Of a DNA stretch of 64,000 bases, positions 1-17,676 are shown one piece after another. The position numbers and the translations under genes are program-made. Under the pieces are notes generated by a model. That model was given only the letters and a program-made list of their open reading frames with translations. It ran no database searches and was not told the origin of the DNA. How positions within the stretch are numbered: position 1 is the first letter of the stretch; each line of letters begins with the position of its first letter. Source of the stretch: Bacillota bacterium (GTDB lineage Bacteria > Bacillota > Sulfobacillia > JABLXB01); assembly GCA_013178305.1 (NCBI GenBank), contig JABLXB010000002.1:372001-436000 (forward strand). Reading direction: 5' to 3'.

Positions 1-1552
1 AGGTAGACGTTGTTGTGAAGCTGCAAAAACCGAGTGAATCCGTAACGGCGAAGACATCCTCGTGCCATCTAACGATCTCCGCCCTTTTCTCAACCAGGAG
101 CGGGTTAGCGTATTTGGCGTCTCCAGTTATCCTGGTGATCAGGTCTTTCGCGCGGGGGTTCATCCCGAATTCCGCAATCGGTTGCGCGTGAAGATGATCA
201 GGTCCGCGTGGGTTAACCGCGAAAGCAAGCGCGTAGGAGTTGGCAGACCTCGTCTCAACCCTCGATTGCTCCAAACCTCTGGCCTCGACGGCCCATTTCC
301 AGGACTCCCGTCCGATAGCCCTGGCAGCCGAACGTACTCCCTCACCCAACACCCTGCCGAGTCCCTCGCGTCTGGCAATCCGGTGGATCATTTCGATAAC
401 AGCTTCCGCGTTGCCGAACCGAAGGTCCAGGCTGTCGGTGTCCTTAACACTTAGCAACTCCTTTTCGAAGCACTCCATAGCAAACTGGATGACTGATCCA
501 GTCGAAATTGAATCCAGCCCGTAGTCATTACATAGCTCGTTAGCTTTCAGAACAGCCTCAGGGTCGACTACGCCGCACCCTGGGCCCAGGGCAGCGATCG
601 TCTCATACTCTGGTCCGCCCGCTTGCCCGGCGTAGGGCCCGTTTGGCACCACGGAATATTTGTGGCAGCAAAGTACACAACTGAAGCACGCGCGCCTGCG
701 CCTGATATAGCCCTTTTGAATCATGTGCTGACCGCTAACCCTGAACGCGTCGGGAGTGTATCCATGTTGAAAATTCCGGGCCGGTAGGCCTCTGGACTCG
801 TTCACGGGCATAATGCTTCCGGGCGTACCCGTTATGTAATACTTGGGAGCGCCTGGGTCTCCGTACAGATTCTCTGTCGCGATCCTTACCAGCTTCGAGA
901 AACGGGCCGGGTCGGCTACCGATAGACTACCGGAGCCTTTGACTACAATGCCCTTCAGATTCTTCGAGGCCATAACCAATCCGACACCACAACGAGCGGC
1001 GGCGCTGTAAGCGTCAAACATTATCCCTGCGAACTTTACCCCCTTCTCAGCCGCAGCTCCGATGCACGCGACGGACGCCGTTCCTCGGCCAGCTCGCCTT
1101 CTTAGCCACGCTGTAGCCTCACGGACATTCTTCCCCCATATAGGCCCGGCATCTTCAAATGAGACTCTACCATCTTCGATAACCAGATACGCAGGAACCT
1201 GGCTCTTCCCCGTAATTACCAGAAGAGAAACGCCCGCCGCCTTCATCATCACGCCGAACGCTGCTCCTGCTGTACTCTTCGCGTACAGCCCCGTGGCAGG
1301 GCTTTTCGTAACTACGCTAATACGTCCTGACGAAGGAGCGTTTGTGCCAGTAAGTGTTCCTGCACCAATAATGAGTGGGACCTCAGGTGAAAGAGGGTCG
1401 ACATGGGGTTGGGTGGTCTCGAACAAAATCTTGGCCCCCAAACCTCGGCTCCCCGCGTACTTGTACACCTCTTCCAACCCAATAGGTACGGCGGCAAATT
1501 GCCGACTGGAAAGGTCTATCCTGAGTTCCTTCATAGCGAGACCCTCACTCAC
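1..1552 (-). CDS. aldehyde ferredoxin oxidoreductase (tungsten type), C-terminus cut off
   Basis: Oxidises aldehydes to carboxylic acids with ferredoxin as acceptor, using a tungsto-bispterin and one 4Fe-4S cluster in the cytoplasm. About 517 residues are visible; the family is usually 600 or more, and the reading frame runs off the window edge. The cluster motif C-x2-C-x3-C is present in RACFSCVLCCHK, and the fourth ligand is probably the Cys of TDSLGFCSF close to the edge. N-terminal IDLSS and GAGTLTGTNAPSSGR stretches fit the AOR N-domain. An ATG lies directly against the strong AAGGAGGT site; an in-frame GTG 6 nt later has better spacing and was chosen as start. It is the last visible gene of the operon led by the IclR regulator. 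The substrate cannot be told from sequence. Confidence 0.92.
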   Translation of the reverse strand, partial: MSEGLAMKELRIDLSSRQFAAVPIGLEEVYKYAGSRGLGAKILFETTQPHVDPLSPEVPLIIGAGTLTGTNAPSSGRISVVTKSPATGLYAKSTAGAAFGVMMKAAGVSLLVITGKSQVPAYLVIEDGRVSFEDAGPIWGKNVREATAWLRRRAGRGTASVACIGAAAEKGVKFAGIMFDAYSAAARCGVGLVMASKNLKGIVVKGSGSLSVADPARFSKLVRIATENLYGDPGAPKYYITGTPGSIMPVNESRGLPARNFQHGYTPDAFRVSGQHMIQKGYIRRRRACFSCVLCCHKYSVVPNGPYAGQAGGPEYETIAALGPGCGVVDPEAVLKANELCNDYGLDSISTGSVIQFAMECFEKELLSVKDTDSLDLRFGNAEAVIEMIHRIARREGLGRVLGEGVRSAARAIGRESWKWAVEARGLEQSRVETRSANSYALAFAVNPRGPDHLHAQPIAEFGMNPRAKDLITRITGDAKYANPLLVEKRAEIVRWHEDVFAVTDSLGFCSFTTTST

Positions 1553-1566
1553 TGCCATACCTCCTT

Positions 1567-1830
1567 TCAACCGCCACCTAGCATAGGGACTATCGAAACC
1601 TCATCGCCATCATGCAGCAGAGTTCGCTCGGCGGATGGTACCGGAATAATAGTACCGTTTACGACAAAGAAATACTGCGAGAGAGGCTCCCCTTCCATTC
1701 CCAGCCGGGAGGTCTTCAGTCGTTCAAGCAGTTCGCGTATGTCAGCGCCCTTCGGGAGGTGAAAGTCGCAAATCACCGTCTTCCCGATAATCGGGAACGC
1801 TCTAACCTTTATCGTGATTTGCTCCTCCAT
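1567..1830 (-). CDS. MoaD/ThiS-like beta-grasp sulfur carrier
   Basis: Small 87-residue protein ending in MLGGG. A C-terminal Gly-Gly is the adenylation/thiocarboxylation tail of MoaD and ThiS proteins, which donate sulfur for the pterin dithiolene or thiazole. The motifs GADIRELLERL and LLHDGDEVSIVPMLGGG match the MoaD fold. It starts at an ATG inside the end of the flavoprotein gene (29-nt overlap) and ends 9 nt upstream of the oxidoreductase. MoaD-like genes are commonly linked to AOR genes, so a role in tungstopterin assembly is inferred. A longer in-frame reading upstream has no coding support. Confidence 0.8.
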   Translation of the reverse strand: MEEQITIKVRAFPIIGKTVICDFHLPKGADIRELLERLKTSRLGMEGEPLSQYFFVVNGTIIPVPSAERTLLHDGDEVSIVPMLGGG

Positions 1831-2533
1831 CGGTGCTACCCCCAAGCTCAGACAGCTTCCACTCTCCGAGAGCCAGCAGCGCCGCAGTTCTCCCGACGTT
1901 CTCACCGAGTATCCGGACCGAATTGAGGCCGAAGTCGTCATGACGGACGACATCGTTACCCCTCTCGTGAGCCCAGCCAACACCGCCAATGTACCCGACA
2001 GGTCCCTGGGCCAAGGAGAAACCGCCAACCGTCACGAATCCAGAGATAAGCAGAAATCTCAGTATGTCAGCGACCACATGCTCTTGACCGCCGTTACGAT
2101 GAAACCCGACGGCGAGAGCACCCGCAGCCGTTTTACTCCAGTCAGGAACGGCTACCCCGTGATCAGGAATCCACACCTTCTTCACCAAGCAGGTGAACCG
2201 CTCTATGAACGCCCTCAACTTTGAGTTCGTACTAAAAAAATAAACCGGCGAACCGATAATCAACCCATTGGGAACGGGGTCTGTAAGCCGCTTCACTGTC
2301 TCCAGCCAGTCGTCTTTTAAGATGCAATATGACCGGGAACGCACGCAACCGCCGCAATCCAAACAGGGTTGAATCTTCTTGCCGTGAAGAGATATGTATT
2401 CCGTTTCAGCGGTCATCCCCGGAACAAGTCCTTCCACGGTCTCTCTTGCGCTTGTTAAGGACTCCTGAACCAGAATCTCGGTGTTTGCGTGTCTGGGACT
2501 GGAGGACAGGCCCACAATTCGGACTCTTTTCAC
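1802..2533 (-). CDS. NADPH-dependent FMN reductase / iron-sulfur flavoprotein family
   Basis: A flavodoxin-fold protein of 243 residues. The N-terminal GLSSSPRHANTEILV is the FMN phosphate-binding loop of this family, and the Cys-rich CLDCGGCVRSRSYC stretch resembles the compact cysteine cluster of archaeal/clostridial iron-sulfur flavoproteins (Isf). GSPVYFFSTNSKLRAFIERF is the second flavin-binding segment. The GTG start overlaps the ferredoxin stop in a GTGA arrangement, so translation is probably coupled. In this operon it may pass electrons between the ferredoxin and another carrier; the partner is not shown. Confidence 0.82.
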   Translation of the reverse strand: MKRVRIVGLSSSPRHANTEILVQESLTSARETVEGLVPGMTAETEYISLHGKKIQPCLDCGGCVRSRSYCILKDDWLETVKRLTDPVPNGLIIGSPVYFFSTNSKLRAFIERFTCLVKKVWIPDHGVAVPDWSKTAAGALAVGFHRNGGQEHVVADILRFLLISGFVTVGGFSLAQGPVGYIGGVGWAHERGNDVVRHDDFGLNSVRILGENVGRTAALLALGEWKLSELGGSTDGGANHDKG

Positions 2534-3003
2534 TCCGCTTCTCCCCCCCTTGCCAACCACTCCCTAATGCGTTCCAGATAGTGGCGAAGATGGTAGATCG
2601 TCGACAGGTTGTTACCTACCAGTTTCAGTGCATTACTTGGGCAGGCCCGCACGCACTCAGGCTCACCCCCGCAGAGGTCGCACTTGAGTACCTCTCCGGC
2701 GCCCGCATGATACGAGATCCCGCCGTTCGGACAGGCACTAACACAGGCCAAACACCCCGTGCACAGTTCCTTATCTATGGACGTCCCTTCTTTGTCCAGC
2801 GCACCGGTCGGGCAAGCCGATACACACGGTTTTGCTTCGCACTGGCAGCACACGATCGGTAGCGATTCACCGCCGATTTCGTCATTCGATATTTTGATCC
2901 GCGATAGGGTCAGGTCATATATGCCGTAGTGTTTGAAACTGCACGCAGTCTGGCACAGGCGGCACCCCGTGCACAACTCGGGCTCTACAATTAACCTATT
3001 CAC
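2530..3003 (-). CDS. polyferredoxin with four 4Fe-4S motifs, AOR partner
   Basis: About 157 residues with four cysteine groups: CTGCRLCQTAC, CCQCEAKPCVSACP, CTGCLACVSACP and CDLCGGEPECVRACP. This is the HycB/DmsB-like electron-transfer subunit often encoded beside aldehyde ferredoxin oxidoreductases. A GTG at 3003 (product beginning VNRLIVEPEL) was chosen because the GGGAGGT site lies about 9 nt upstream; the earlier in-frame GTG sits on the ribosome binding site itself. It overlaps the IclR stop by 8 nt and the flavoprotein start by 4 nt. It probably takes electrons from the oxidoreductase. Confidence 0.88.
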   Translation of the reverse strand: MNRLIVEPELCTGCRLCQTACSFKHYGIYDLTLSRIKISNDEIGGESLPIVCCQCEAKPCVSACPTGALDKEGTSIDKELCTGCLACVSACPNGGISYHAGAGEVLKCDLCGGEPECVRACPSNALKLVGNNLSTIYHLRHYLERIREWLARGGEAE

Positions 3004-3820
3004 TGGGTATGTCACCTCCCTGGAATCCGTTTTCGGTCGTGAGCTGCAAAGCTGAGGAAATCTTCCTGGCAGCTTCTTGTTGCAAACATATCAGCCGATC
3101 GAGCCCTGATTGGTCTAACCTGCTGTCCGGCCCGGCGATGCTAAGGCTGGCGACCGCGCGGTCGGCACGATATCCCAGAATTGGCACAGCAATTGCGTAA
3201 ATCCCTTCATCTAATTCCCCAACGCTGAAAGCCCATCCCCTTTGGCGTATCAAGTCCAGTTCTTTCTGGAGCTCGTCGGGATCCGTTATGGTGCGATGGG
3301 TAAACTTGGTCAACGGCCTGTTCAAAGCGCGTAAACGCGCCTTTTCTGGAAGGTACGCCATCAAGACCTTCGCCGAGGCTCCTGCATGTAAAGGGCTGAC
3401 TGAACCGGGCTTAAAGGTGACCCTTATCGGACGCGTCGATTCAACTTTCTCGATGCAGACTGCTTTCTCATCATCTCCCAGGACGGTAAGAAAGACAGAT
3501 TCACCTGTATCCGCAGCGAGCTGGCGCATAACCGGCAGAGCAACATCCCTAATCTGTATGTCACCGTCCATAATACTGGCAAGCTCCACGATGGCAAATC
3601 CTAGGGAGTACTGCCTGGTCGTCCGATCATACCTTACGAACCCGTGCCGCTCGAGGGTGCAAAGCAAACGATAGACTATGCTTTTGTGGAGGCCTGTCGC
3701 AACGCACAAATTCGCCAGGCTCCTTCGCGGAGTCTGCGGGGTAAACTGTTTGAGGAGGGTTAATGCTCTATCCACTGTTTGGCAAGTAGCTGTAGACTTC
3801 ACGCGACACACCCTATACAA
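2996..3820 (-). CDS. IclR-family transcriptional regulator
   Basis: Winged-helix N-terminus (about residues 10-75: TVDRALTLLKQF, LANLCVATGLHKSIVYRLL, RHGFVRYDRTTRQYSLGF) followed by the IclR effector domain (LTVLGDDEKAVCIEKVE, HAGASAKVLMAYLP, RGWAFSVGELDEGIYAIAVP). It is first in the aldehyde-oxidoreductase operon and divergent from the DUF917 gene, so it probably controls both directions and itself. The start is uncertain: the frame opens with TTG at 3820, a GTG at 3802 is an alternative, and no clear ribosome binding site is seen. The effector is unknown. Confidence 0.9.
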   Translation of the reverse strand: MYRVCRVKSTATCQTVDRALTLLKQFTPQTPRRSLANLCVATGLHKSIVYRLLCTLERHGFVRYDRTTRQYSLGFAIVELASIMDGDIQIRDVALPVMRQLAADTGESVFLTVLGDDEKAVCIEKVESTRPIRVTFKPGSVSPLHAGASAKVLMAYLPEKARLRALNRPLTKFTHRTITDPDELQKELDLIRQRGWAFSVGELDEGIYAIAVPILGYRADRAVASLSIAGPDSRLDQSGLDRLICLQQEAARKISSALQLTTENGFQGGDIPSE

Positions 3821-3956
3821 TAACTATAGAAATGTAAGTTTCGCTATTTGCTATTTCTACTATACTACGCTGACCTTCAAAGTCCTGCTTCGTCTGCCTT
3901 AAAGTTGCTAATACTTTGGGGATAAACTCGTATTCTGAACGCAGGGAGGGTAATCG
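3821..3956. promoter_or_regulatory. divergent IclR / DUF917 promoter region
   Basis: AT-rich 136-bp gap between two divergent genes, unlike the GC-rich surroundings. It should hold both promoters and the IclR operator. I see several TATACT/TATAGT-like hexamers but no pair with convincing -35 spacing. The only firm signal is the AGGGAGG ribosome binding site just before the ATG at 3957. Confidence 0.35.
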
Positions 3957-5033
3957 ATGAGTCCTGTACGCTTAGACAAAGACGTCCTGGATGCAATCAC
4001 GCTCGGCGGTGCGTTTTACGGGGGAGGGGGCGGGGGCCCAATAACTCAGGGGGTTGAATTGGGACAGCTGGCCCTTCAGTATGGGAACCCAACGATGATA
4101 AGCATCGATGAGATGCCTGGAGACGCTATCCTCCTGACAGTCTCCGCGGTAGGAGCTCCAGCTGCACAAGGACAGCATGCAAAGGCGTATCATTACGTCA
4201 GAGCGGTAGAACTGTTTATCAAATACTCCGGTATCGAAGTACACGGATTCATCAGCAATGAGTGTGGGGGGCTTGCTTCGGTTAACGGGTGGATTCAGTC
4301 AGCGGCCTTTGGTTTACCGGTGGTCGACGCCCCGTGCGACGGGAGGGCTCATCCTACAGGTATAATGGGATCTATGGGGCTTCGTTGGCCGGAATATACC
4401 TCCTTACAGGCAGCATGTGGCGGGAGCAGATCCGAGGGCACCTACGTCGAAATCTTCACGACCGGCTCCCCTGAGAAGACAGCTGCACTTGTACGGCAGG
4501 CAGCGGTCCAGGCGGGTGGTCTTGTCGCGGTGGCGAGGAACCCGGTTGAGGCTTCATATGTCAGGTCTCACGGTGCGCCAGGATCTCTTGAGAAGTGTAT
4601 TAAGGTAGGGCGAGCGATGCTGGACGCGAAGACCCGGGGGCCGTTGGAAATGGCACAGGCCGCCGCGGCGACCGCGGACGGGAAGGTAATGTTCACCGCC
4701 AGAGTCAGCAAAAAAGATCTGGAGACCGTGGGCGGGTTTGATGTTGGTCAGATTACCTTTGATAACGGCGCCCAGGTAGTCTTCTGGAACGAGTACATAA
4801 CGCTGGACATGGGTGCTGAGCGACTAGCCACTTTTCCGGATCTAATAGCAACAATCAGTACTGAGTCGGGAGTACCCCTATCCAGTACGGATATCGTACC
4901 CGACAGTGAAGTGGCGGTAGTGGTGGTTCCGAAAGGCCATCTGATCCTAGGCGCAGGAGTGAAGGACAAATCGCTGTTTTACGCAGTTGAAGAGGCTACT
5001 GGACAGAGGATAATCGAGTACGTGTTCAAATGA
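3957..5033 (+). CDS. DUF917 (S-methyl-thiohydantoin desulfurase-like) family protein
   Basis: A 358-residue protein of the DUF917 family (Pfam renamed its domains S-Me-THD). The Gly-rich GGAFYGGGGGGP near the N-terminus, NECGGLASVNGWIQSA in the middle and the long beta-rich C-terminal part ending KGHLILGAGVKD are typical. Members sit near hydantoinase and amino-acid catabolic genes; only a few have a known reaction, so the substrate here is open. A strong AGGGAGG site precedes the ATG. It is divergent from the IclR operon. A second family member is encoded at 23456-24589. Confidence 0.82.
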   Translation: MSPVRLDKDVLDAITLGGAFYGGGGGGPITQGVELGQLALQYGNPTMISIDEMPGDAILLTVSAVGAPAAQGQHAKAYHYVRAVELFIKYSGIEVHGFISNECGGLASVNGWIQSAAFGLPVVDAPCDGRAHPTGIMGSMGLRWPEYTSLQAACGGSRSEGTYVEIFTTGSPEKTAALVRQAAVQAGGLVAVARNPVEASYVRSHGAPGSLEKCIKVGRAMLDAKTRGPLEMAQAAAATADGKVMFTARVSKKDLETVGGFDVGQITFDNGAQVVFWNEYITLDMGAERLATFPDLIATISTESGVPLSSTDIVPDSEVAVVVVPKGHLILGAGVKDKSLFYAVEEATGQRIIEYVFK

Positions 5034-5521
5034 TGACGGCGGTGGATCAGGCAAGGATTGCAACCAGTATTTGGGATAAGCTCCTGCGGCAGACCCGGTT
5101 CCTCAGTACTTCTTCACCACCTCGAGGTGGGCGTACTCGCTTTTTCTTTCAGAGTCGGATCAGTAGAGTCTCAAGTAGTCGTGTTGGCATGATGGATTTG
5201 GAGACAAGCGCGACTGAGAGACAGGCAGGTACGCGCGAGAATACGAACTGCCAATGACAAATGAGATGGAAGTGACCCATCTTTGTGCAAGGGAATTCTC
5301 CGCCAGTAGTGGGCGGAGGCTGGCGCTGAGCGCGGGCGGAGGGTGCGCCGGTATTTTACATGGGCAAAAGCTCGCAGTTGGTGTTTGGTCGGCCCCCTCC
5401 CGCGTACCGCCCACATGGGTCCGGCCACGGTGACCGGGAAGCCCGAACAGGTGTATGCAATTGCCTAGCTGAGGACACCACCGCGCTCGATCGAAAGAAT
5501 TACTGTTGCAGGATGTTGCCG
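5034..5521. other. gene-poor stretch
   Basis: No reading frame here shows recognisable protein similarity. It contains a perfect 14-bp palindrome (CCACCTCGAGGTGG, 5117-5130) about 85 bp after the DUF917 stop, possibly part of a terminator although no T-run follows. The rest is probably decayed mobile DNA like the segment to its right. Confidence 0.35.
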
Positions 5522-5524
5522 TCA

Positions 5525-5598
5525 ATGCCGCGCTACTTTGGACTTGACCTGCATAAGAACCACGTGCACGGTTTCGAGTGGATTCCGGAAGTCCGGCA
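5525..5598 (+). pseudogene. IS110-family transposase N-terminal fragment
   Basis: About 24 codons read MPRYFGLDLHKNHVHGFEW, which matches the start of IS110-family (DEDD) transposases, where the first Asp of the catalytic set lies in the GLDLHK motif. The frame loses similarity after IPEVRQ, where it runs into an oppositely oriented ATPase fragment. This is a remnant, not an active element. Confidence 0.55.
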
Positions 5599-5599
5599 A

Positions 5600-5864
5600 G
5601 CATCGAGGCCGAGAACAGGTGGGCCTCGTCTATGACGAGGACGGGCTGTTTGCCCTGGTTCTCGTAGGCATCGAGGAAGGCGTGGTCGAACTGGCAGCGG
5701 GCATCCCTCTGGTGAAACGCGGGTGTGATACCGAACTGAGCCAGGACTTCTCTATAGAAGCCCCGTGGTTCAAGAGCGGAATCGGCGATGTAATGGACTC
5801 CATCCTGGCTATCGCAAACAAGAAACGCCGGTGAACCACTCCCAAGGCTACCGGCGTCCCGCAA
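5600..5864 (-). pseudogene. ExeA/TniB-like AAA ATPase fragment
   Basis: The minus frame encodes SALEPRGFYREVLAQFG and KQPVLVIDEAHLFSASML, matching the middle of ExeA-like ATPases that accompany transposases, including the Walker B motif (VLVIDEAH). The Walker A part is missing upstream and similarity stops right after SASML. Frame-open sequence continues to 5160 but without recognisable content. Remnant of a mobile element abutting the IS110 fragment. Confidence 0.6.
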
Positions 5865-5954
5865 ACCAGGCAGGCTAAATGCCTGCCTCTTTTCGTTTTC
5901 CTGTCATTTTCCTGTCAAACTGAGTTTTCCGCTTTTCGGATTTGGGCCTTACAC

Positions 5955-6030
5955 TGGTGGGCGGTACAGGACTTGAACCTGTGACCTCGTGAATGTGAGT
6001 CACGCGCTCTAACCACTGAGCTAACCGCCC
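5955..6030 (-). tRNA. tRNA-Val (CAC)
   Basis: A 76-nt cloverleaf on the minus strand with encoded CCA. Acceptor arms GGGCGGT / ACCGCCC pair fully; the anticodon stem CGTGA / TCACG holds the loop CTCACAT with anticodon CAC; the T-arm reads ACAGG-TTCAAGT-CCTGT. Confidence 0.95.
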
Positions 6031-6407: not shown

Positions 6408-6563
6408 CGGCTCGACCCCCGGCTCGTGTACTCACGTTCTGTGGTACCGTCATGCCCGATCGTTCTGCAATTCTGTCACCGTGCAGCCTCCTGCCCAACG
6501 GATTCCGTGGACTTACCCCAAAACGGGGTTGACGGAATAGTCTGGCCGTGGGAGGTGAGTATT

Positions 6564-6893
6564 GTGTACGGCTATGGTGACTACACGGGCTGGGACTACA
6601 TTCCGGGAGTAGCGCAGCAACCTGGGTTTCCCCAGTATCCCGGATATCCGGGCTATCCAGGGGTACCTCCGGCATACCCGGGTTTCCCGCCGACGTTCCC
6701 GGCGCCGTTCCCGGGAAACCTGCAGCAACGCGTTGTGAGGCTGGAGAGGGCTGTTGCGCTCATGGAAGCGGAGATCGACCGGCTGGCGCGCAGGGTTGCG
6801 GACCTCGATAGGAGGGTCGCGCGGCTCGAAGGCAGGCCTGGTGGTAGTGAACTCGGCCCTGGAGCCGGAGAGGCTGGCAAACCCGGAGGCTGA
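6564..6893 (+). CDS. Pro/Gly/Tyr-rich protein with C-terminal coiled coil
   Basis: A 109-residue protein. Residues 1-50 are made of PGY/PGV/PGF-type units (FPQYPGYPGYPG), like spore-coat or surface proteins; residues about 55-90 form a heptad-rich helix (VVRLERAVALMEAEIDRLA, then ADLDRRVARLEGR). No signal peptide. A GTG start was chosen because GGGAGGTG lies 6 nt upstream. It is followed by a strong hairpin terminator. A coat or spore-surface role is only a guess from composition. Confidence 0.65.
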   Translation: MYGYGDYTGWDYIPGVAQQPGFPQYPGYPGYPGVPPAYPGFPPTFPAPFPGNLQQRVVRLERAVALMEAEIDRLARRVADLDRRVARLEGRPGGSELGPGAGEAGKPGG

Positions 6894-7023: not shown

Positions 7024-7332
7024 CTAGCAGCACCCCTTTGAACCGGAGCAGCCACACCCGGGTCCGCCGCAATCCGGCTCTCCGCCGGTTAGCAGGCCAC
7101 GGATGATGGCCACAGCGCAGCCGACTCCCGACTTCACCGTGATAGCGCCGGCCGGGCAGTTCCGCGAGCACGCGCCGCACTCCATACAGTCATCCTTGCA
7201 GATAACTCTTGCTGTGGTGCCCTCCATCTCGAGCACTCGATGGGGGCACACCGATACACACATCCCGCAGCCCGTGCACAGGTCGCGGTCCAGCTCGAGA
7301 GTCGCGACGTCCTTCAAGTACTGCAACGTCAT
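7024..7332 (-). CDS. hgcB: HgcB, ferredoxin of mercury methylation
   Basis: A 102-residue ferredoxin with two 4Fe-4S motifs (CTGCGMCVSVCP and CMECGACSRNCP) and a Cys-rich tail ending in a vicinal CC. The two-cluster fold plus the terminal Cys pair is diagnostic for HgcB, which reduces the corrinoid of HgcA and binds Hg(II) for methyl transfer. It starts 18 nt after the hgcA stop, the usual gene order. ATG at 7332 was preferred; the frame is open to a TTG at 7344, which would sit on the AGGAGAGG ribosome binding site. Confidence 0.9.
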   Translation of the reverse strand: MTLQYLKDVATLELDRDLCTGCGMCVSVCPHRVLEMEGTTARVICKDDCMECGACSRNCPAGAITVKSGVGCAVAIIRGLLTGGEPDCGGPGCGCSGSKGCC

Positions 7333-7350
7333 GACACGCACCAACCTCTC

Positions 7351-8430
7351 CTAGAGCAGGAACCAAAATGCCAGGCCGGCCACAACCGAACACGCCAGCG
7401 TGGGGAGGGCTATCCTCATCTCCCGCTTCACCCCCGAGAACGAGGTGACCGGCGTGGCCCCCGTGAAATTCAGGGCAATGTATGCGGAGGCCGCGGGCCA
7501 TATCAGCAGAGTCGCCGCTACGGTCCCTGCGCCGGTCGCGCCGTGCCGGGTCACCCAGGTCGCGCAGAGTCCAGCCGACACCAGCAGGCCCGCAATCCAG
7601 CCTTTCAGCGAGAACGCCCGTCCAGGTATCCACGGCAGCGCGATAGGTACCGCAACCGAACCGGCCACGACCGCGCTCGCAGCGGCCAGCATGAGGTCCC
7701 TTATGCCCGGCCTGAAAGCACCGGCGGGGACATGCCCGCCGCCGAACCGCCTCATGATGAAGGCCAGGAGCACGCCAGCGGCGAGTACCGTCCACGACCC
7801 CAACAGCTCAACCGGGACAAGCACGAGTCGGTCGAGGAAGCCGAACCGTACGCGCCGCATCCCGGGGTCAGCCTTCATGTCCCGTTCGAGGAATCTTCCC
7901 AGGTCGGCTGCACGCACCGGGCCGTACACCACTTCAAAGCCCGATCGTCGCCGGACTTCGTGAGCCGCGACGCCAGGAGCCCCGAGTTGAGGCAGGATGA
8001 TAGTCCTGTGGTCTACGACCTCCGGCAGCCGTACTGCTGCCAGGCGCCGGACCACCTCTGCGGTCCCGAATGTTCCCTTCCCCGCAGCGCACCAGACGTT
8101 TATGCCGTATGTATCCAGTACCACGACCCAGGTGTCCCTACCGTCAATCTGCCGACGGAGCAGGTCGAACGTCATCTTGTAGTTAGCAGTGATCACCACG
8201 GGGGACGACCGCCCGGGCGAGCCGACTGCGTAAAGCCCAGGCGGAACGCGGTAGGTGAACCTACCGATCCCGAGGCGAACGCCCACCATGCCGAGCGTGT
8301 CCTCGAGCGACAGCCTTGTTGAGACACGGGGCACAAGCCCCGCCCCTGACTCCACCCATCCGGTGATCCATTCGGGGTCGCGCTTCCCGGGGTTCTCCCG
8401 CCTATCCTGGCAGCTCGGCTGCCTACTCAT
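7351..8430 (-). CDS. hgcA: HgcA, corrinoid methyltransferase of mercury methylation
   Basis: A 359-residue membrane protein that transfers a methyl group from its cobamide to Hg(II). The N-terminal corrinoid domain carries the invariant cap-helix motif NVWCAAGK (residues 111-118, Cys114 being the expected lower cobalt ligand). The C-terminal half has about five transmembrane helices, and FTGATPVTSFSGV is the conserved segment before the last helix. Length, topology and the adjacent hgcB fit the family. An ATG with GGAGGT 6 nt upstream fixes the start. The source of the methyl group (folate/CFeSP route) is not in this window. Confidence 0.95.
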   Translation of the reverse strand: MSRQPSCQDRRENPGKRDPEWITGWVESGAGLVPRVSTRLSLEDTLGMVGVRLGIGRFTYRVPPGLYAVGSPGRSSPVVITANYKMTFDLLRRQIDGRDTWVVVLDTYGINVWCAAGKGTFGTAEVVRRLAAVRLPEVVDHRTIILPQLGAPGVAAHEVRRRSGFEVVYGPVRAADLGRFLERDMKADPGMRRVRFGFLDRLVLVPVELLGSWTVLAAGVLLAFIMRRFGGGHVPAGAFRPGIRDLMLAAASAVVAGSVAVPIALPWIPGRAFSLKGWIAGLLVSAGLCATWVTRHGATGAGTVAATLLIWPAASAYIALNFTGATPVTSFSGVKREMRIALPTLACSVVAGLAFWFLL

Positions 8431-8471: not shown

Positions 8472-8868
8472 TTAGTCCTCGATCTTCTGTATGTAGTCGA
8501 GGTTGCCCTCCGAGGGTTCGAATGGTCGTAGCGGAAGAGGCGGGAAGCGTTCAGCCACTCGAAGACTCGGTCGTACCGTGCGAGTAGCAGTCCCAACCTG
8601 ACGGGGTCACTTGACGCAAGTCCCCGCACGTCGGAGCCAGGCGCGGCGTCTGGGTGCGTACGCGTGCAGTACACGATGAGGGTGCCAGAAGCGTGGCGCA
8701 GTAGTCGGGTATCCTCGCGCGATCCTCGGGATAACGGAAGGCCGGAGAGATCTGGAGAGCAGGATGCGCCTCCGCCAGCTGGCGCACGAGAATTGCGTTG
8801 TCCGCGAAGTAGCAGCCCTCGATGATGATCACCAGTATCCTGACCGCCTTTCGTCGACCGCACCACCG
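8472..8868 (-). pseudogene. frameshifted small gene upstream of hgcA
   Basis: Coding-like sequence jumps between three minus frames: ILVIIIEGCYFADNAILV with RYPEDRARIPDYCAT, then GTLIVYCTRTHPDAAP and LLLARYDRVFEWLNASR, and finally EPSEGNLDYIQKIED followed by a stop. Each part looks protein-like and they are collinear, suggesting one gene of about 130 codons with two frameshifts. I do not recognise the family. Either a decayed gene or sequencing errors. Confidence 0.4.
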
Positions 8869-8986
8869 GTCGGACCGCAGCTCAGCGGTGTCCTTTTTCA
8901 AGTTATGTAAAACTTCGGCCGGTTGTTCAACGGCCTCCCGTGGGACAGAATATGGGTGAATCCGTTCGCTTTATGGAGGGGATCCA

Positions 8987-9223
8987 ATGCCAGAAGCCGG
9001 TTCAAAGCGAGTGACGTTCCACGTGCCCGGCATGTCGTGTTCACACTGCCGGACCGCCATCTCCAAAGTCCTCGGGGAATCCAGGGGAGTTATAAAGGCC
9101 GACGTGGATCTGCCCGCCAAAACGGTGATTGTCGACTACGACCCGGAACGCGCAAGCCTGGACGATCTGAAGCGGGTGCTTACGCAGGCGGGATATACGC
9201 CGCAGGGGGGTTCGCAAGGGTAA
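8987..9223 (+). CDS. heavy-metal-associated (HMA) domain protein, CopZ/MerP-like
   Basis: A 78-residue single HMA domain with the metal-binding motif GMSCSHC and the usual beta-alpha-beta-beta-alpha-beta pattern (KADVDLPAKTVIVDYDPE, LKRVLTQAGYTPQ). Such proteins carry Cu(I) or, in MerP, Hg(II). No signal peptide, so cytosolic like CopZ. GGAGGGG lies 5 nt before the ATG. It lies about 560 bp from hgcA on the opposite strand; a role in delivering mercury is possible but not shown. Confidence 0.85.
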   Translation: MPEAGSKRVTFHVPGMSCSHCRTAISKVLGESRGVIKADVDLPAKTVIVDYDPERASLDDLKRVLTQAGYTPQGGSQG

Positions 9224-9324: not shown

Positions 9325-9332
9325 TGGTCATC

Positions 9333-9404
9333 TTATGGTGGCCCCAACGGGAATCGAACCCGTGTTACCGCCTTGAAAGAGCGGTGTCTTGACCTCTTGA
9401 CCAT
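9333..9404. repeat. attachment-site copy (distal end)
   Basis: 72 bp identical to 17599-17670, covering the CCA end through the D-arm of tRNA-Glu. The bases beyond (TTCCCCTG instead of GGGGCCAC) destroy the acceptor stem, so this copy cannot give a tRNA. It marks the far end of the integrated element. Confidence 0.92.
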
Positions 9405-9491
9405 TCCCCTGTTAAAACTGCGTTTCTGGCCCCATTCCCTCGCCAGGGTAACCGCTTTTCATTTTGAGCCTTATTTACTGCTCCTTCGCCG

Positions 9492-10505
9492 TCACTGGTC
9501 AGAATCCTGCTCAGGTTGGGAGGTTTTTGAAGGAGCGGCCTTCGTACGGATAACGCCTACCGGCGTACGACGGCCCTGTCTTTGTCTTCGCTTTTTCTCT
9601 CTCTGACGGCACCTTTCGGAGCAAAACTTCTCCCGAGGTGGCAGTACTAAGTTGCCGCAATCGGCTGCTGAACACCTGGTTACGTTGAGGTATCCCAATT
9701 CCTGAAAGAACCATTGTAGGAACGCCGCGAGGATAGCACCACTGGCTCCGAACACCCAAGTGTACAGCGGGAATCTTGGGTCATCCTCGCGGCTAAGCAT
9801 CGGAATGAGAACAAACACCGGCAGTACTCTCGACACACAATCCACAATCGCCTCCCAGGTGTCTCTGAGAAGCTGATCGTCATTCTGAGGTCCCATCCAG
9901 ATGGTTTCATACGCCGCTGTGCCCCCGCGTCCGGTCTTCTTGCGGAATATGGGCGGCCACGGCAGGTAGCGAACGTACGGCCAAGAGCCATCCCCGACAA
10001 GATAGACCGCACTGAGTTCTTCCTTGATGACCATTGCCTTTTCGAAGGGCCGATCCCCCGCGTTGTTCCTGCCCTGGCGGAAGAGGTCCCAGAGCGGCCC
10101 CACTTTGCCGTTCTTGACCCATTCGACCATCAGAGTTAACCCGCGAAACCAGTCAAGCCATTTCATGCATACTCCCCATGACTCGGAGACCGGCTTGCAC
10201 GGATTGACCCCGGGCATTGTCTCGTTCCGTCCCCACCCGAGGCATGGTCCGTGCGGCAGAAGATGACCGTATTTCCCATAGAAGTCCTCAATCTGTCTCC
10301 AATCGTTTTTCTCAAAGGCGAAGTATAGCTGTCGCACTGTTCTCCAGAAGCGAGGGTCGGTTTCGGTCGGATTGAACATGCCACGCAGGTTGTCTTCGAT
10401 GCACCGTATCCACCGTTCGCCCCTTTCGTCCTGCGTCAGGGCAACCTTGACCCAGGGAATGCTCGCATAAGCAGTCTCGGCGGCTATCGTCTCCAGTCTG
10501 TGCAT
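9492..10505 (-). CDS. unknown protein with C-terminal zinc-finger motif
   Basis: A 337-residue protein. The C-terminal region RCSAADCGNLVLPPREKFC followed by SERCRQREKKRRQRQGRR carries a C-x4-C...C-x3-C metal site and a basic tail, resembling CGNR-type zinc fingers and suggesting nucleic-acid binding. The rest has many Trp and aromatic residues and one hydrophobic stretch (VFGASGAILAAFLQWFFQ); no enzyme motif recognised. It is the only leftward gene at this end of the element, divergent from the XRE gene, with its own sigma-A promoter. Candidate accessory or defence gene, by position only. Confidence 0.75.
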   Translation of the reverse strand: MHRLETIAAETAYASIPWVKVALTQDERGERWIRCIEDNLRGMFNPTETDPRFWRTVRQLYFAFEKNDWRQIEDFYGKYGHLLPHGPCLGWGRNETMPGVNPCKPVSESWGVCMKWLDWFRGLTLMVEWVKNGKVGPLWDLFRQGRNNAGDRPFEKAMVIKEELSAVYLVGDGSWPYVRYLPWPPIFRKKTGRGGTAAYETIWMGPQNDDQLLRDTWEAIVDCVSRVLPVFVLIPMLSREDDPRFPLYTWVFGASGAILAAFLQWFFQELGYLNVTRCSAADCGNLVLPPREKFCSERCRQREKKRRQRQGRRTPVGVIRTKAAPSKTSQPEQDSDQ

Positions 10506-10535
10506 CTGTGTCCCCCCTAAGTCCCCCCTTCCTAT

Positions 10536-10565
10536 ATTATAGACACAGAATCCTGCTCAGGTCAA
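10536..10565 (-). promoter_or_regulatory. sigma-A promoter of the Zn-finger gene
   Basis: TTGACC and TATAAT are separated by 18 bp on the minus strand, about 30 bp before the ATG at 10505. The site lies between this gene and the divergent XRE regulator, a natural place for XRE control. Confidence 0.65.
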
Positions 10566-10583
10566 TCAGAAGGGGTGTGAAGC

Positions 10584-10799
10584 ATGGTTACGCAGGTCGC
10601 ATTGCTTCGGTTCAAGACGGGCGTAACTGCTCGTGAATTCGCCAAGGCTGTCGGAATCCCAGAGGTTACCATGTACCGCATTGAGCGGGGAAGGCAGTAC
10701 GTCCCTCCAAAATGGCGTCGTCCCCTGGCGGAGGCTCTAGGGGTCTCCGAGGAGGAAATCTGCGACCCCAAGACGGGCTGGCCCAGGTTGGTGGCTTAG
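10584..10799 (+). CDS. XRE-family HTH regulator
   Basis: A 71-residue protein almost entirely composed of a Cro/CI-type helix-turn-helix (VTAREFAKAVGIPEVTMYRI, then LAEALGVSEEEICDP). The ATG follows an AGAAGGGG site. It is divergent from the Zn-finger gene and precedes the replication genes of the element, as expected for a repressor of the element. Confidence 0.85.
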   Translation: MVTQVALLRFKTGVTAREFAKAVGIPEVTMYRIERGRQYVPPKWRRPLAEALGVSEEEICDPKTGWPRLVA

Positions 10800-10893
10800 C
10801 CCAACGGCAATGGAATAACCCTCTCGACGTGGCGACGGCCGAAGGGAGGGACAATCCCAATGCAGCGTTACCCGAAGGAGGCGATCATTTCGA

Positions 10894-11070
10894 TTGACCC
10901 CTGAAGCGAAGGCTCGACGGCGGGCGAACGCCAGGCGAGGAAAGAGCGAGCGGCGTCTTTTACGTGAAGCCCGAGCCGTCCTCCTCAAAGAAGCAGAAGC
11001 GAGGCGAGCGGAAGGCGTTATCGACGCCGTGATCTGGGGGGTGATTCGCAACCTGAGAGATGCAATCTGA
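10894..11070 (+). CDS. small basic protein (putative)
   Basis: A 58-codon frame starting TTG, very rich in Arg, Ala and Glu (EAKARRRANARRGKSERR), ending before a gap of about 130 bp. An AGGAGG site lies 12 nt upstream, and a 14-codon frame beginning at an ATG at 10860 ends over its start. The composition suggests a nucleic-acid-binding helix, but without homology it could be a chance frame. Confidence 0.4.
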   Translation: MTPEAKARRRANARRGKSERRLLREARAVLLKEAEARRAEGVIDAVIWGVIRNLRDAI

Positions 11071-11200
11071 CTTCGCTTGACACGTCCTCAACTGAGTCCC
11101 ACTAGTCCCACGCGGGTGCTAAGACAACCCGCATTTTTGTTCCCCAAAAAACAACCGGGCCGGGGTGCGAACCCGGCCCAATTCATTGGAGGCATAGCCT

Positions 11201-11569
11201 ATGTCAAAGGGTATTCCGATCAAAGCTCCCGTCAACGGTCTCTGGCGTGTTTGCGGGACCCTCTGCCCAGGGAACCCGCCAGTCTTCGTTCAGCGTATCA
11301 AGCCCCAGGACGTTCTGCGGATACGGGGAGCCGCAGGGGTTGACCTGGCTTACGACCCACCGCTACCGCCAAACACGATCCTCCGCCACGAAATCATGGG
11401 ACAGGATACCTACGAAATCCCGCTAGCCGTCCTGCTGAACCACTTGAAGGCCGAACGCCTGCAAGTCGGCCCCAAGCACCCCCGCCGGATTTACCTCGCC
11501 TACAAGTACTGGCGGAACGTCATGCGAGAATCGGCCCAACTGCCGCTCTTCGGCGGTGAGGCTGTATGA
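11201..11569 (+). CDS. unknown protein coupled to the primase-like gene
   Basis: A 122-residue protein with a TTGGAGG site upstream. Its stop overlaps the next gene's start (ATGA), so the two are translated together. No family recognised; the C-terminal end SAQLPLFGGEAV contains QLPLF, which fits the QLxLF pattern of a beta-clamp-binding peptide (inference). A replication accessory role is plausible from position. Confidence 0.7.
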   Translation: MSKGIPIKAPVNGLWRVCGTLCPGNPPVFVQRIKPQDVLRIRGAAGVDLAYDPPLPPNTILRHEIMGQDTYEIPLAVLLNHLKAERLQVGPKHPRRIYLAYKYWRNVMRESAQLPLFGGEAV

Positions 11570-13329
11570 GTCTTGCGGTCAGCGTACTCGAACCGGCCCG
11601 GGCAACCGTCCCGGGCCGCAGTACTTGGTGGTCCCCCGCCAGGGTCGCCATCCACGAAGGCCACTGGAAAACCGTCCACTACCCGAAGTATACCGCAGTG
11701 GTCAGGAAAGGTCAAACGCTGGCTGTTTCCCCGGTCGGGATTGACGGCATGGCTCACTTCGTGGCCTTCGACATAGATAGCGGCGATGAGGGAGACGTTC
11801 AGGCCGTCCTGAAGGCGTTACCTCAAGGGACGGTCCCCCTCGTGAGTCATTCCGGGAAGAAGGGGTGGCATGTCTGGCTGTTCCCCTCCGCTCCCATCCC
11901 TGTAAAGACCGCCCTAGCGTTCGGAAGGTGGGTCCTCGAAAGGTCTGCTGTCTCCTGCGAGGTGTTTCCCACGGGGAAGAACAGTCGCTGCCTCAAGTGG
12001 CCCGGGAGCCCCCATCCTGAGACGAAGAAGCCGGAGGTATTCGTCCCTATCGAGAACGTGGCCGGCACACCGGACACTGACGCCACCCTTCAGGCCCTGG
12101 CGGATGGGCTTTACAGAACCCCCGCCGACCTGTTCGAGCGAAGGCAGTCATGCTCACGGCAGGATAGGGGGTTCCCCGAAGGGGTCTCATATACCCATAT
12201 GGGGTATAATGATCCAATCGCTGAGAACAACACAAGAACAGCGACCGCAAAAGGGAGGAGCCTCGCCATGCTGCCTGAGCTGGCCTTCGGGCTTGCTGAA
12301 CTTGCAGGAAGGCGGGTGACGAAGATGGGCAAGCCCTTCCGGTGCATCCTCCCAGGCCACGAGGAACGCAAACCTTCGGCAGAGTTTTACGTGGGAGACA
12401 ACGGCACAGTCGTTTACCATGATTGGCACGCTTCAAAGCACGGCACGCCTGAGTTTCTAACCCTTGGGGAAATGTATCACGCTATTGCAACGGGAAGGAT
12501 AGCCAAACTGAGACCTGTCGATTCTGCAAGGTGGCTCGCTAGGCTCGCCCTACGCCTCGGCATACACAACGAGCAAACAAAACAAGTCCGCTCCTCACTT
12601 GATCGCCTATCTCAGATCTTACTCCAATCATCAGTATTATCTTCACCAGTTGGTTGTAAAACGAGAGGGGCAGATGTGTCCATGGCGAAAGGCGAAATAA
12701 TTTCGTCTTTCGTCCTCTTACCGCCACCAGCCCTGCCAGAGGAGAAGAACCGCGGCAAGGGTAATGAATTGACAAGAGTGTGGCAGGCGTTTTGCGATGA
12801 AGCGATGGTTTCGGCAATGAACGGATTCAACGAGGTGAAGCTGTCTAAGCGGTTCCTGGCTCGAATTGCTGATGTGCCGGACGACGTTGCTAACAGGGCG
12901 ATGAATCTCCTGTCCGTTCTCGGCGTTTTGGAGAAGGCCCCTGGCAGCGGAGGCGAACGCGGGGACAGGTTCGTGCTGGGTGACCCTTCCGCTCGGAAAT
13001 CATTTCCGTTCTTTTCCGAAGAGGTCCAAAGGCGTTGGGAGGCGTTGGGCAAACCTTCCTTGAGGCAGTTCAAGAAGACCCTCGTGGAGGAACGCCTGGG
13101 TCCGGAGATAGCCAACGCAGTCTTCAGACGGTCCCAAAAGGAGAACGAATTACCTTCGGCTGCAGAGAAGACGGTCCAAGTCACGGACGAGGCATCAGTC
13201 ATCCGGGACAATGGCTCCACAAAGCCCTACAATGCCCCAGGAGACGTTTTCTTGGGCGAAGAGTACCTGAGATATGGACAAGCGTCACAAGCCGTCTCCT
13301 GGGGCTTCCTAGAAGGTTCTGCCTGCTAG
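11566..13329 (+). CDS. primase-like replication protein of the element
   Basis: A 587-residue protein. Residues about 60-175 look like an archaeo-eukaryotic-type primase core: FVAFDID (acidic metal ligands), SHSGKKGWHVWLFP (conserved His region) and CEVFPTGKN...LKWPGSPHP. Around residues 240-310, FRCILPGHEERKPSAEFY and VYHDWHASKHG resemble a CHC2-like zinc module that presents template. The C-terminal third (SAMNGFNEVKLSKRFLARIA) may be a winged helix. It probably starts replication of the excised element; catalytic activity is inferred from motifs. Confidence 0.75.
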   Translation: MSLAVSVLEPARATVPGRSTWWSPARVAIHEGHWKTVHYPKYTAVVRKGQTLAVSPVGIDGMAHFVAFDIDSGDEGDVQAVLKALPQGTVPLVSHSGKKGWHVWLFPSAPIPVKTALAFGRWVLERSAVSCEVFPTGKNSRCLKWPGSPHPETKKPEVFVPIENVAGTPDTDATLQALADGLYRTPADLFERRQSCSRQDRGFPEGVSYTHMGYNDPIAENNTRTATAKGRSLAMLPELAFGLAELAGRRVTKMGKPFRCILPGHEERKPSAEFYVGDNGTVVYHDWHASKHGTPEFLTLGEMYHAIATGRIAKLRPVDSARWLARLALRLGIHNEQTKQVRSSLDRLSQILLQSSVLSSPVGCKTRGADVSMAKGEIISSFVLLPPPALPEEKNRGKGNELTRVWQAFCDEAMVSAMNGFNEVKLSKRFLARIADVPDDVANRAMNLLSVLGVLEKAPGSGGERGDRFVLGDPSARKSFPFFSEEVQRRWEALGKPSLRQFKKTLVEERLGPEIANAVFRRSQKENELPSAAEKTVQVTDEASVIRDNGSTKPYNAPGDVFLGEEYLRYGQASQAVSWGFLEGSAC

Positions 13330-13398
13330 AATGCGGTCAAAATGCGGTAGCATGTGCGTGCTCACGACAACATGTGAGCCAGAAAGGGGTGTCCTTTG

Positions 13399-13680
13399 GT
13401 GGGTAGAGCAGGGAGCACGTTCATTCAGTGGGACGATTACGAGGGGCATGTTTACCTCCAGACCACGAGCGGCAAACTCGTCGAAACCCTCACTGCCGTG
13501 GGGGTTGTGTGGGAAGCGAAGGACGATGCGGGAACCTACTCCTACAGGATACCCACTGCCTGGCTCAGGCTCAGGATACCCAGGGGGGGTATACTGAAAT
13601 TCGGGTGGTACCCCACGAAGAAGCAGAAGGGGGTGCTCGCTATCATGGAAGAGCGGCCCAAACTAGTCGTGGTCAAGTAA
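13399..13680 (+). CDS. unknown small protein of the element
   Basis: A 93-residue, beta-rich protein (GSTFIQWDDYEGHVYLQTT, then PRGGILKFGWYPTKKQKG). GTG start with GAAAGGGG upstream; the frame also opens at TTG one codon earlier. It ends 24 nt before the next likely start. No family recognised. Confidence 0.6.
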   Translation: MGRAGSTFIQWDDYEGHVYLQTTSGKLVETLTAVGVVWEAKDDAGTYSYRIPTAWLRLRIPRGGILKFGWYPTKKQKGVLAIMEERPKLVVVK

Positions 13681-13703
13681 GTTCCTCGGAGAAGTTCGCG
13701 TAC

Positions 13704-14045
13704 ATGATCGGGAAGCTGTACGAGGAGAGAAAGCGGGACAAAGAGGACAATTTGAGGCAGAACAGAGAGCCGAACCATCAAAATGATGCTTCGGGGAATA
13801 CCTCCGAAGCCATTGCCGAAGAATACAAAGTCGGCAAGGCCACTGTTGAACGTGCTGCCAGCACTCATCAGTTTGCCGGAGCCGTGATCAAGAAAGAACT
13901 GGCTCGCCTGATGTATGTGTCTAAGCCGGGATTAGAGACTGCAGTAAGCCTGCTAAAGTATGCTCCAGATTTCGTGGTCTTCTTTGAAGAGAGTAAGCCA
14001 GGGGGCTTCTTTACCAGATACCTAAACGCAGTGGACCGACCTTGA
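13704..14045 (+). CDS. ParB/KorB-like DNA-binding protein
   Basis: About 113 residues. A basic, Asn/Gln-rich stretch (RQNREPNHQNDASGNTSEAI) leads into the helix-turn-helix AEEYKVGKATVERAAS, the arrangement seen in ParB-like proteins of plasmids, phages and integrative elements. ATG at 13704 was chosen; the frame is open upstream but overlaps the previous gene out of frame. The C-terminal part differs from usual relatives, so partner specificity is unknown. Confidence 0.6.
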   Translation: MIGKLYEERKRDKEDNLRQNREPNHQNDASGNTSEAIAEEYKVGKATVERAASTHQFAGAVIKKELARLMYVSKPGLETAVSLLKYAPDFVVFFEESKPGGFFTRYLNAVDRP

Positions 14046-14095
14046 GTTGTCGATAGCGAGAATGCCATGCCTGCGATAACCGGGAGGGATGTTCG

Positions 14096-14674
14096 GTGTC
14101 CTATTTCTTGGTTGCCGGCCAACCTGTGTTCCTCTCAACCAGTCGGTACGGAGCTCTTCTCACCGAAGCTTTATCGGATGAGACTTCCAAGAATCGCGTC
14201 CGTGCTTCTATCGCAGGAACTGCAGAGCACCGCCGATCTGTGCTTCGCATGCAAAACCTCCTCAAATCGAAATACAGTACAGACCCAGTGCGTTTTTACA
14301 GTGAATGGGTGGATTTCGACTTTGCGGATGCTGAGGCTCGTGATAACGTCTCTGACCTACTGTACGACTACTGCGACTTACACGGATGCGGGCGGCTGAT
14401 AGACTTCCGGGATTCTACCCAACGGTTACTAGACGCTTACGAATGCGAAAACCTTTCGTATCCGTTCGGAATGGTCTTCGGCTTGGAGTTCGACGTTGGG
14501 CTGAGACCGCTATGGCTGCGAACGTTCCTTAGGAGCAAGAATCTAAGAGTCATTATTGCAACCCAGCTGGTCAGTCGTCTCAAAGGCACTCTCAGTGACT
14601 TTACCATGTACTCTCTCTGCACAACCATTCGTTTCAACAGCAACGGTGTTGTTCTCCAGCCGTCTAACCTGTAA
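14096..14674 (+). CDS. unknown protein, possible cargo gene
   Basis: A 192-residue protein with GTG start behind GGGAGG. Composition is less GC-biased than the chromosome. No domain recognised: FYSEWVDFDFADAEARDNV, then LLYDYCDLHGCGRLIDFRD, are notable acidic/aromatic segments. It is last in the rightward gene series of the element, a position often used for cargo such as defence genes. Confidence 0.6.
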   Translation: MSYFLVAGQPVFLSTSRYGALLTEALSDETSKNRVRASIAGTAEHRRSVLRMQNLLKSKYSTDPVRFYSEWVDFDFADAEARDNVSDLLYDYCDLHGCGRLIDFRDSTQRLLDAYECENLSYPFGMVFGLEFDVGLRPLWLRTFLRSKNLRVIIATQLVSRLKGTLSDFTMYSLCTTIRFNSNGVVLQPSNL

Positions 14675-15391
14675 TCGCGGTTGTATTTGACAAATTCGTG
14701 TTGTTAACCGAGGTTTCATTGTCTCGGTACTTGAGCTTGTGCATCGACGGGAAGCCAGTCCACGGTCGCTAGCAGAAGCATGGTGGTTTTCTCACCTCTT
14801 CCGAAAGGCTACTGCAGTCAAAGAATTCCACTGGGCCACAAGTAAAGGTGAGCAGGCTGCAGTCGATCACGTCGCAGGTGTCCGTAAAACGGAGACAAAC
14901 GGGACCGATAAAACGGACGAAAAGCGATTCTCGTTGCTAACAAGGCGAAAACAACGGCGTCCAGCGGATGTCCGCGTGGATGGCGGGCGTACGTCCGATA
15001 TTGAGAACAGACCGAAAACACTAGTCCTGAGAACAGGGAAGAACAGGAAACCCGCCTGAACGGTTCGCCTCGAAACCGGATAGCGGCGGCCGCACAAAGA
15101 TACCGGCATATTTCACAGAAGACAGCCTCAAATGTAATTGCGGACATTAGTAAAAACGGCAGACTTGCCGAAATTACTATCCTGTAGAATGTCCCAGGAC
15201 GGACGTTTCGAGGGCGGGTAAGGGTGTAGGTATCCCCCGGCCCCTGGAGGGCTTCCATCAGTATAGGGTTAAGGAAATGTTTCCTGAAGCCATAAAGGGC
15301 CAAAAAAGAACGGAAATGATTTCCCTTCTTTATGCTGAGAAGATCGGCTTAGTACGGGAGGCGGTCAAGTCTTTGGCACGCTGGCCCCTGG
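14675..15391. other. non-coding stretch of the element, possible origin or control region
   Basis: No reading frame here looks protein-coding. The sequence after 14880 is purine-rich with recurring AAAACGGA/GGACGAAAA-type words and an ACCGAG...CTCGGT hairpin near 14708. Such content could be an origin or transfer region, but I find no clear iteron set. Confidence 0.35.
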
Positions 15392-15489
15392 GTTTCAATC
15401 CACGCCCCCGCACGGGGGGCGACCGGATATCGTGCTCGAACTCAGCCGCCGCAATTGGTTTCAATCCACGCCCCCCTGCGGGGGCGAAC
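15392..15489. CRISPR. two-repeat CRISPR-like array, type I-C-like repeats, no cas genes
   Basis: Two 32-nt units (15392-15423 and 15458-15489) both begin GTTTCAATCCACGCCCCC and close with the complementary GGGGGCG, flanking one 34-nt spacer. The repeat length, the palindrome and the GTTTCAATCCACGC edge match type I-C repeats (read on the minus strand, ending GTGGATTGAAAC). The two hairpins keep a 7-bp stem but differ in the loop, and the unit at 15458 is degenerate at its outer end. No cas gene lies in the window. Confidence 0.6.
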
Positions 15490-15513
15490 CCTGTGGTAAT
15501 GTTGCCACAGGGT
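15488..15513. terminator. hairpin abutting the CRISPR-like repeat
   Basis: ACCCTGTGG / CCACAGGGT form a perfect 9-bp stem around an 8-nt loop directly after the second repeat. There is no T-tract, so it may be a structural RNA element rather than a terminator. Confidence 0.4.
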
Positions 15514-15873
15514 GAAGCGGGCAAGACGTGCGATGTTGAGCACCTGGACAAGGGGCAAACCACTATGCCCCGGGGACGTAAAATCGCGGCAGCGTTGCTC
15601 CTTGAGACCGTAGGTAGGTCTCGCGTGAGCTGCCGCGAATTGAAGTGACTTCTTGTCTACGCCCGATTCTCACTATATGCGATTGATAGGCTGAGCAGGG
15701 GGGGGACGTGCGTTCTTGACAGAAAGTTCCCCTGAGACCGTGGGCAGGGTTTGCTTTCGTAAAATTCTCTTTTTCGCCCAACTCGTTCCCGCAAACCCAT
15801 AACGAGGCAAGAGAGGAGGCGGATCGCCTGCTCGCCGACGCTGCCCGCCTCCGTGACCGCCACAGTCTTTGAT
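15514..15873. other. no supported gene
   Basis: Intergenic sequence of the element. A few words recur (CTTGAGACCGT near 15601, CTGAGACCGTGGGCAGG near 15733) but I see no coding frame and no complete hairpin terminator. Confidence 0.35.
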
Positions 15874-16176
15874 TCAGGCGTCTTCAACCTTGATAGCAGG
15901 GAACGCCTCCTCGAACGGGACTTCCTTTTCGGGCAGCTGCTCGTAAAGGAGCACTGCGTCGTCCAGGGAGAGGGGTTCCAGGCGGTCCCTCTCCCCTTCC
16001 CAGCAAGTGCGATACTGGGCGAAGTAGTTCCCACTCGGGGTGCGGTAGAGGAACGTGTTCCTGCCGTGCCTCTCCCAGTTGTGCCCGTCCCAGTAGGCGT
16101 TTGAAGCAATGAGGGTCGCCGTCTCCGTGGAATACCTCTTCCGACCGATTACCGCAGTCATCTCCGCAGGTTTCAT
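15874..16176 (-). CDS. unknown small protein of the element
   Basis: A 100-residue protein starting at an ATG with CGGAGG upstream. IGRKRYSTETATLIASNAYW followed by NTFLYRTPSGNYFAQY suggests a compact alpha/beta fold of a kind seen in other Firmicute mobile elements, but I cannot name a family. The frame continues upstream without coding character. Confidence 0.6.
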   Translation of the reverse strand: MKPAEMTAVIGRKRYSTETATLIASNAYWDGHNWERHGRNTFLYRTPSGNYFAQYRTCWEGERDRLEPLSLDDAVLLYEQLPEKEVPFEEAFPAIKVEDA

Positions 16177-16237
16177 GATGCATGCCTCCGGGGACTGTGC
16201 CCCAATCTGGCGGTCCGGTCCATGCCGGCCGCCGTTC

Positions 16238-17670: not shown

Positions 17671-17676
17671 GGGGCC
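17602..17676 (-). tRNA. tRNA-Glu (UUC)
   Basis: A 75-nt tRNA with encoded CCA. GGCCCCA / TGGGGCC form the acceptor stem; the loop CTTTCAA carries anticodon TTC; the T-arm is ACGGG-TTCGATT-CCCGT. Its 3' part is contributed by the integrated element. Confidence 0.95.

Follow-up and report, generated by a model that had tools for sequence, protein, structure and literature searches.

A predicted hgcAB mercury-methylation operon on a divergent HgcA branch beside a tRNA-Glu insertion site in a Sulfobacillia bacterium

Introduction

Two adjacent genes in a 64,000-nucleotide stretch of DNA from a Bacillota bacterium of the class Sulfobacillia (hereafter the window) raise the question of whether they form a genuine mercury-methylation pair, hgcA and hgcB, and by what route such a pair came to lie in this genome. 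Possession of hgcAB is an accepted predictor and marker of mercury methylation, not a proof of it. The original prediction that the organism is a methylator is fair as the accepted reading of an hgcAB pair, but its description of the pair as sufficient is stronger than sequence can support. The analysis adds a predicted methylator to a class in which hgcAB is rare, and places it on a divergent HgcA branch.

Gene integrity and family identity

The hgcA gene occupies positions 7351 to 8430 on the minus strand and encodes a corrinoid protein of 359 amino acids. Its open reading frame is intact, with an ATG start at 8430 and an upstream GGAGGT ribosome-binding site at a spacing of 6 nt that is rated good. 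The hgcB gene (7024 to 7332, minus strand) lies directly downstream on the same strand, as in an operon, and encodes a dicluster ferredoxin of 102 amino acids from ATG 7332, which is the most likely start, with GTG 7341 and TTG 7344 as in-frame alternatives. If hgcB starts at ATG 7332 the two genes are 18 nt apart, and the full-length hgcA-hgcB order and spacing originally described are borne out by two intact reading frames. HgcA scores 421.3 bits against the NCBIfam equivalog model NF040863 (E = 2.4e-126; cut-off 275 bits) and HgcB scores 117.4 bits against NF040864 (E = 1.8e-34; cut-off 99 bits), and these E values exclude chance matches.

HgcA consists of a corrinoid domain at about residues 33-183, which includes the cap helix at 111-118, followed by five transmembrane helices at 205-358. 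The predicted cap motif NVWCAAGK is present at residues 111-118 and conforms to the HgcA pattern N(V/I)WCA(A/G)GK with its cobalt-ligand cysteine; the N, V, W and C and one G of the cap helix are invariant in an alignment of 48 homologues. Five hydrophobic segments were found by hydropathy (207-225, 245-270, 272-290, 302-322 and 338-359), and they match the five long C-terminal helices of an AlphaFold2 model built with the 48 homologues as input (mean pLDDT 90.5), as expected for the five-helix membrane domain that had been proposed. In the same model, residues 112-118 of the cap form a helix. In HgcB, an alignment across 57 loci shows both CxxCxxCxxxCP motifs with all eight Fe-S cluster cysteines, the equivalent of Cys73 as the conserved cysteine in GVGCA, and a terminal Cys-Cys, so that the two 4Fe-4S motifs and cysteine pair claimed for this protein are both seen.

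A different identity, that of an HgcA-related corrinoid protein of other function, either of the fused HgcAB-like type or a large subunit of the corrinoid iron-sulfur protein (CFeSP), draws on the fact that Pfam alone labels HgcA as CdhD (PF03599) and on the resemblance of the corrinoid domain to CFeSP gamma: CFeSP large subunits are the sole matches of HgcA in the PDB sequence set (E = 1.8e-11, 27% identity over the corrinoid domain). The C-terminal corrinoid domain of the CFeSP large (gamma) subunit AcsC/CdhE has a fold like that of HgcA, but this subunit lacks the cap-helix cysteine and the membrane domain and forms a separate clade. Against the CFeSP gamma model the window HgcA reaches 66 bits, far below the cut-off of 306. 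HgcAB-like fusions possess homologous corrinoid and ferredoxin parts, whereas the window has two separate genes, and HgcA scores 192 bits against the fusion model NF043039, below its cut-off of 285. In an HgcA tree rooted with five CFeSP sequences as outgroup, all HgcA sequences, including that of the window, separate from CFeSP with 100% SH-aLRT support. By Foldseek, the published HgcAB model 9a0b ranks first among the PDB matches of the HgcA model (E = 2.3e-19, only 43% identity), ahead of CFeSP chains (E of about 1e-8). A CFeSP identity is rejected by model score, tree split and the cap-helix cysteine, and a fused HgcAB-like identity by model scores, tree and the unfused genes, which leaves a protein of other function extremely unlikely. 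The pair is an ordinary, well-supported HgcAB pair of known kind in an under-sampled lineage.

Phylogenetic position of HgcA

Within the HgcA tree, the window HgcA forms a deep branch with no supported partner and has a long end branch (0.94-1.16). Its closest identity, 52-54%, is to a delta-proteobacterial sequence, and the sequences nearest to it by tree path are mostly from Bacillota. It sits outside the main Bacillota HgcA clade, which includes Desulfosporosinus, although its placement within HgcA is uncertain because the trees are of a quick type. HgcAB from Desulfosporosinus (L019) and Pseudobacteroides (L021) share gene order and motifs with the window pair at 48-49% identity, yet the window HgcA falls outside their clade. 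It is a deep, unplaced HgcA lineage, and none of the relatives found exceeds about 54% identity to it. The principal sigma factor of the host is closest over its full length to three SigA-named chains of similar length, which fits Bacillota.

Predicted activity and methyl donor

The present analysis shows that the genes are intact, belong to the HgcA and HgcB families, keep the catalytic residues and the fold, and share their genome with C1-folate enzymes; the reaction and residue roles are drawn from the literature on Desulfovibrio ND132. Desulfovibrio desulfuricans ND132 is a proven mercury methylator, and its HgcAB shares with the window pair the domain order, the cap-helix cysteine, five transmembrane helices, two 4Fe-4S motifs, the Cys73 equivalent and the terminal cysteine pair of HgcB; a difference from ND132 is that no ArsR-type gene was found beside hgcA at the window locus. 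In ND132, methylation is abolished by the HgcA substitutions Cys93Ala and Cys93Thr and by HgcB Cys73Ala, and it falls by 95% when both terminal cysteines of HgcB are lost (PMC7305189). All residues required according to these mutants are kept in the window pair, which supports predicted activity. In the proposed reaction, HgcA would hold a corrinoid with Cys114 of the cap helix as lower ligand, its cobalt would be reduced to Co(I) by the two 4Fe-4S clusters of HgcB, a pterin-dependent methyltransferase would load a methyl group from methyl-tetrahydrofolate onto the HgcA corrinoid, and the C-terminal cysteines of HgcB would deliver Hg(II), onto which methyl transfer would yield methylmercury.

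The genome encodes formyl-THF synthetase (FTHFS), MTHFR, a pterin-domain homocysteine methyltransferase and, as a distinct protein, a pterin-binding methyltransferase. There is no match in the genome to acetyl-CoA synthase, nor to CFeSP with the HgcA model, which detects CFeSP in many members of the class. Absence of both is likely rather than certain, as the genome is 97.7% complete, and the missing CFeSP match is not unusual, since several other hgcA-positive genomes also lack one. Given the C1-folate enzymes and the absent acetyl-CoA synthase and CFeSP matches, the methyl donor is probably methyl-folate (methyl-THF). This would be a further case of folate chemistry supplying the methyl group in a genome that lacks a complete Wood-Ljungdahl pathway. 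Elsewhere in the window, a cobalamin riboswitch (Rfam RF00174, 76 bits) lies at 45658-45852 on the minus strand, upstream of a solute-binding-protein-like open reading frame (44350-45570), and may serve corrinoid or metal uptake relevant to the HgcA cofactor.

Taken from sequence, the locus very probably represents a genuine, intact hgcAB operon that would make methylmercury by the HgcA/HgcB route with methyl groups from methyl-tetrahydrofolate. Among hgcAB-positive methanogens, eight of the nine tested produced methylmercury above controls, and one did not (PMC5893877). That single exception, together with the deep, isolated HgcA branch and a broken small open reading frame upstream of hgcA, would fit an HgcAB that is intact by descent in an organism that makes no methylmercury in nature, either because the genes are unexpressed or because the native substrate is not mercury. 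Such an outcome is unlikely, as the functional residues are all kept, codon usage is native and the ribosome-binding site is good, a combination that suggests purifying selection. The long end branch means that the window HgcA may have altered specificity.

Genomic neighbourhood

Upstream of hgcA, a decayed or frameshifted small open reading frame (8475 to 8901, minus strand) has readable pieces in three frames, no family match and no convincing counterpart at other hgcAB loci. Beyond it, and divergent from hgcA, lies a gene for a stand-alone HMA-domain metallochaperone of CopZ/MerP-like type (8987 to 9223, plus strand; PF00403, E = 9.6e-17), which carries the motif MSCSHC and scores below both the CopZ and MerP cut-offs. 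The genome contains only one further HMA match, within a 789-amino-acid frame. No HMA partner gene turned up at any other hgcAB locus examined, and related genomes have similar domains in other places, so that a conserved HMA partner of hgcAB is rejected; a role of this metallochaperone in mercury handling is speculative.

An integrative element of about 8.3 kb (about 9404-17670) is flanked on each side by the 3' part of a tRNA-Glu gene. The intact tRNA-Glu(TTC), identified by ARAGORN at 17602 to 17676 on the minus strand, is the integration site, and the distal att site, 8.27 kb away, is a direct repeat at 9330 to 9404 (74/75 identical; partial RF00005 match), an arrangement typical of integrated elements. 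The element encodes a tyrosine integrase (16431 to 17387, minus strand; PF00589, E = 2.5e-28), an XRE-type regulator and a primase-like (AEP-TOTE) protein. At 15391-15484 within the element, a 28-nt repeat (GGTTTCAATCCACGCCCCC...) occurs twice, 66 nt apart, resembling a one-spacer CRISPR array. A tRNA-Met gene (17722-17799) and a glutamine synthetase gene adjoin the tRNA-Glu gene, and the order of the tRNA pair and glutamine synthetase is identical in both same-family genomes (G001 and G002).

On the other side of hgcAB, a gene for a small YPG-repeat/coiled-coil protein (6555 to 6893, plus strand) has a counterpart in G002, from a sister genus, where it lies 93 nt from the tRNA-Glu gene with tRNA-Met and glutamine synthetase behind. 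The left boundary of the inserted DNA is accordingly placed at this gene: in the window, hgcAB, the HMA gene and a separate integrase element lie between the YPG-repeat gene and tRNA-Glu. G001 possesses other genes at the corresponding place. As both relatives differ there, hgcAB, the broken small frame and the HMA gene occupy a variable site. Further left, positions 1-6000 have a GC content of about 55% and atypical codon usage, against 60-66% GC in the core, and hold genes for an IclR regulator, a DUF917-type protein, a ferredoxin and an FMN reductase-like protein, and a broken AAA open reading frame; the IclR and DUF917 genes are clearly atypical in codon usage.

Distribution and origin of hgcAB

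A profile search found one HgcA match in the window's genome. Within the class, 5 genomes out of 154, this one included, encode a full-length HgcA and one more a fragment, the six being from different families; HgcA is absent from both other genomes of the window's own family. In an even sample of the phylum, HgcA scores above cut-off in 30 of 398 genomes. No hgcA relatives were found in IMG/VR, among PLSDB plasmids or among INPHARED phages. A single clade of the five full-length class HgcAs is rejected (AU p = 3.9e-160), and with it vertical inheritance across the class, and support for joining the window HgcA to its class members L060 and L062 is 0, which speaks neither for nor against that grouping. 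Given this non-clade pattern, the rarity of HgcA in the class, its absence from both family genomes and the tRNA-Glu position, the most likely history of hgcAB in this lineage is an older horizontal acquisition at a tRNA-Glu insertion hot spot, a conclusion less certain than the identity of the pair. Loss of hgcAB in both sister genomes is possible, but the sparse distribution in the class makes gain in the window's lineage the more parsimonious reading.

The start of hgcA lies 0.9 kb past the distal att copy, a proximity that could point to hgcAB as freshly acquired cargo of the adjacent element. The pair, however, is beyond both att copies, and the tRNA-Glu 3' part has only these two copies in the window, with no third att copy. 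Codon usage scores of -0.055 and -0.057 for hgcA and hgcB fall within the core range (-0.10 to +0.10) and give no positive sign of recent transfer, whereas codon usage in the non-integrase genes of the element is foreign (-0.27 to -0.45), which argues against a recent arrival of hgcAB with the element. Att positions and codon usage together lead to rejection of the cargo reading, which is very unlikely; hgcAB is most likely an older resident of the tRNA-Glu insertion hot spot. An assembly or binning artefact that brought in a locus from another organism might be suspected from an assembly of 22 contigs with 3.86% contamination, yet the locus sits well inside a 496-kb contig, at about 380 kb, its codon usage is native and the flanking gene order is partly as in the same-family genomes, making such an artefact scarcely credible.

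McDaniel et al. (2020) reported that no hgcA lay close to a known insertion sequence or transposase (PMC7438021). With hgcAB at the tRNA hot spot in the window and the corresponding site of a sister genus empty, travel of hgcAB between phyla becomes testable in this family. It is conceivable, though rather doubtful, that hgcA-hgcB and the HMA metallochaperone moved in as a compact cassette at the tRNA-Glu 3' end, in which case the metallochaperone may hand Hg(II) to HgcB, and the locus would show a specific site at which mercury-methylation genes integrate as they spread horizontally. A general link between hgcAB and tRNA genes is rejected, as a tRNA lies within 3 kb at 6 of 57 other loci, about as tRNA density predicts. 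In the wider survey, the UBA4049 metagenome-assembled genome carries two different hgcA genes (L042 and L050).
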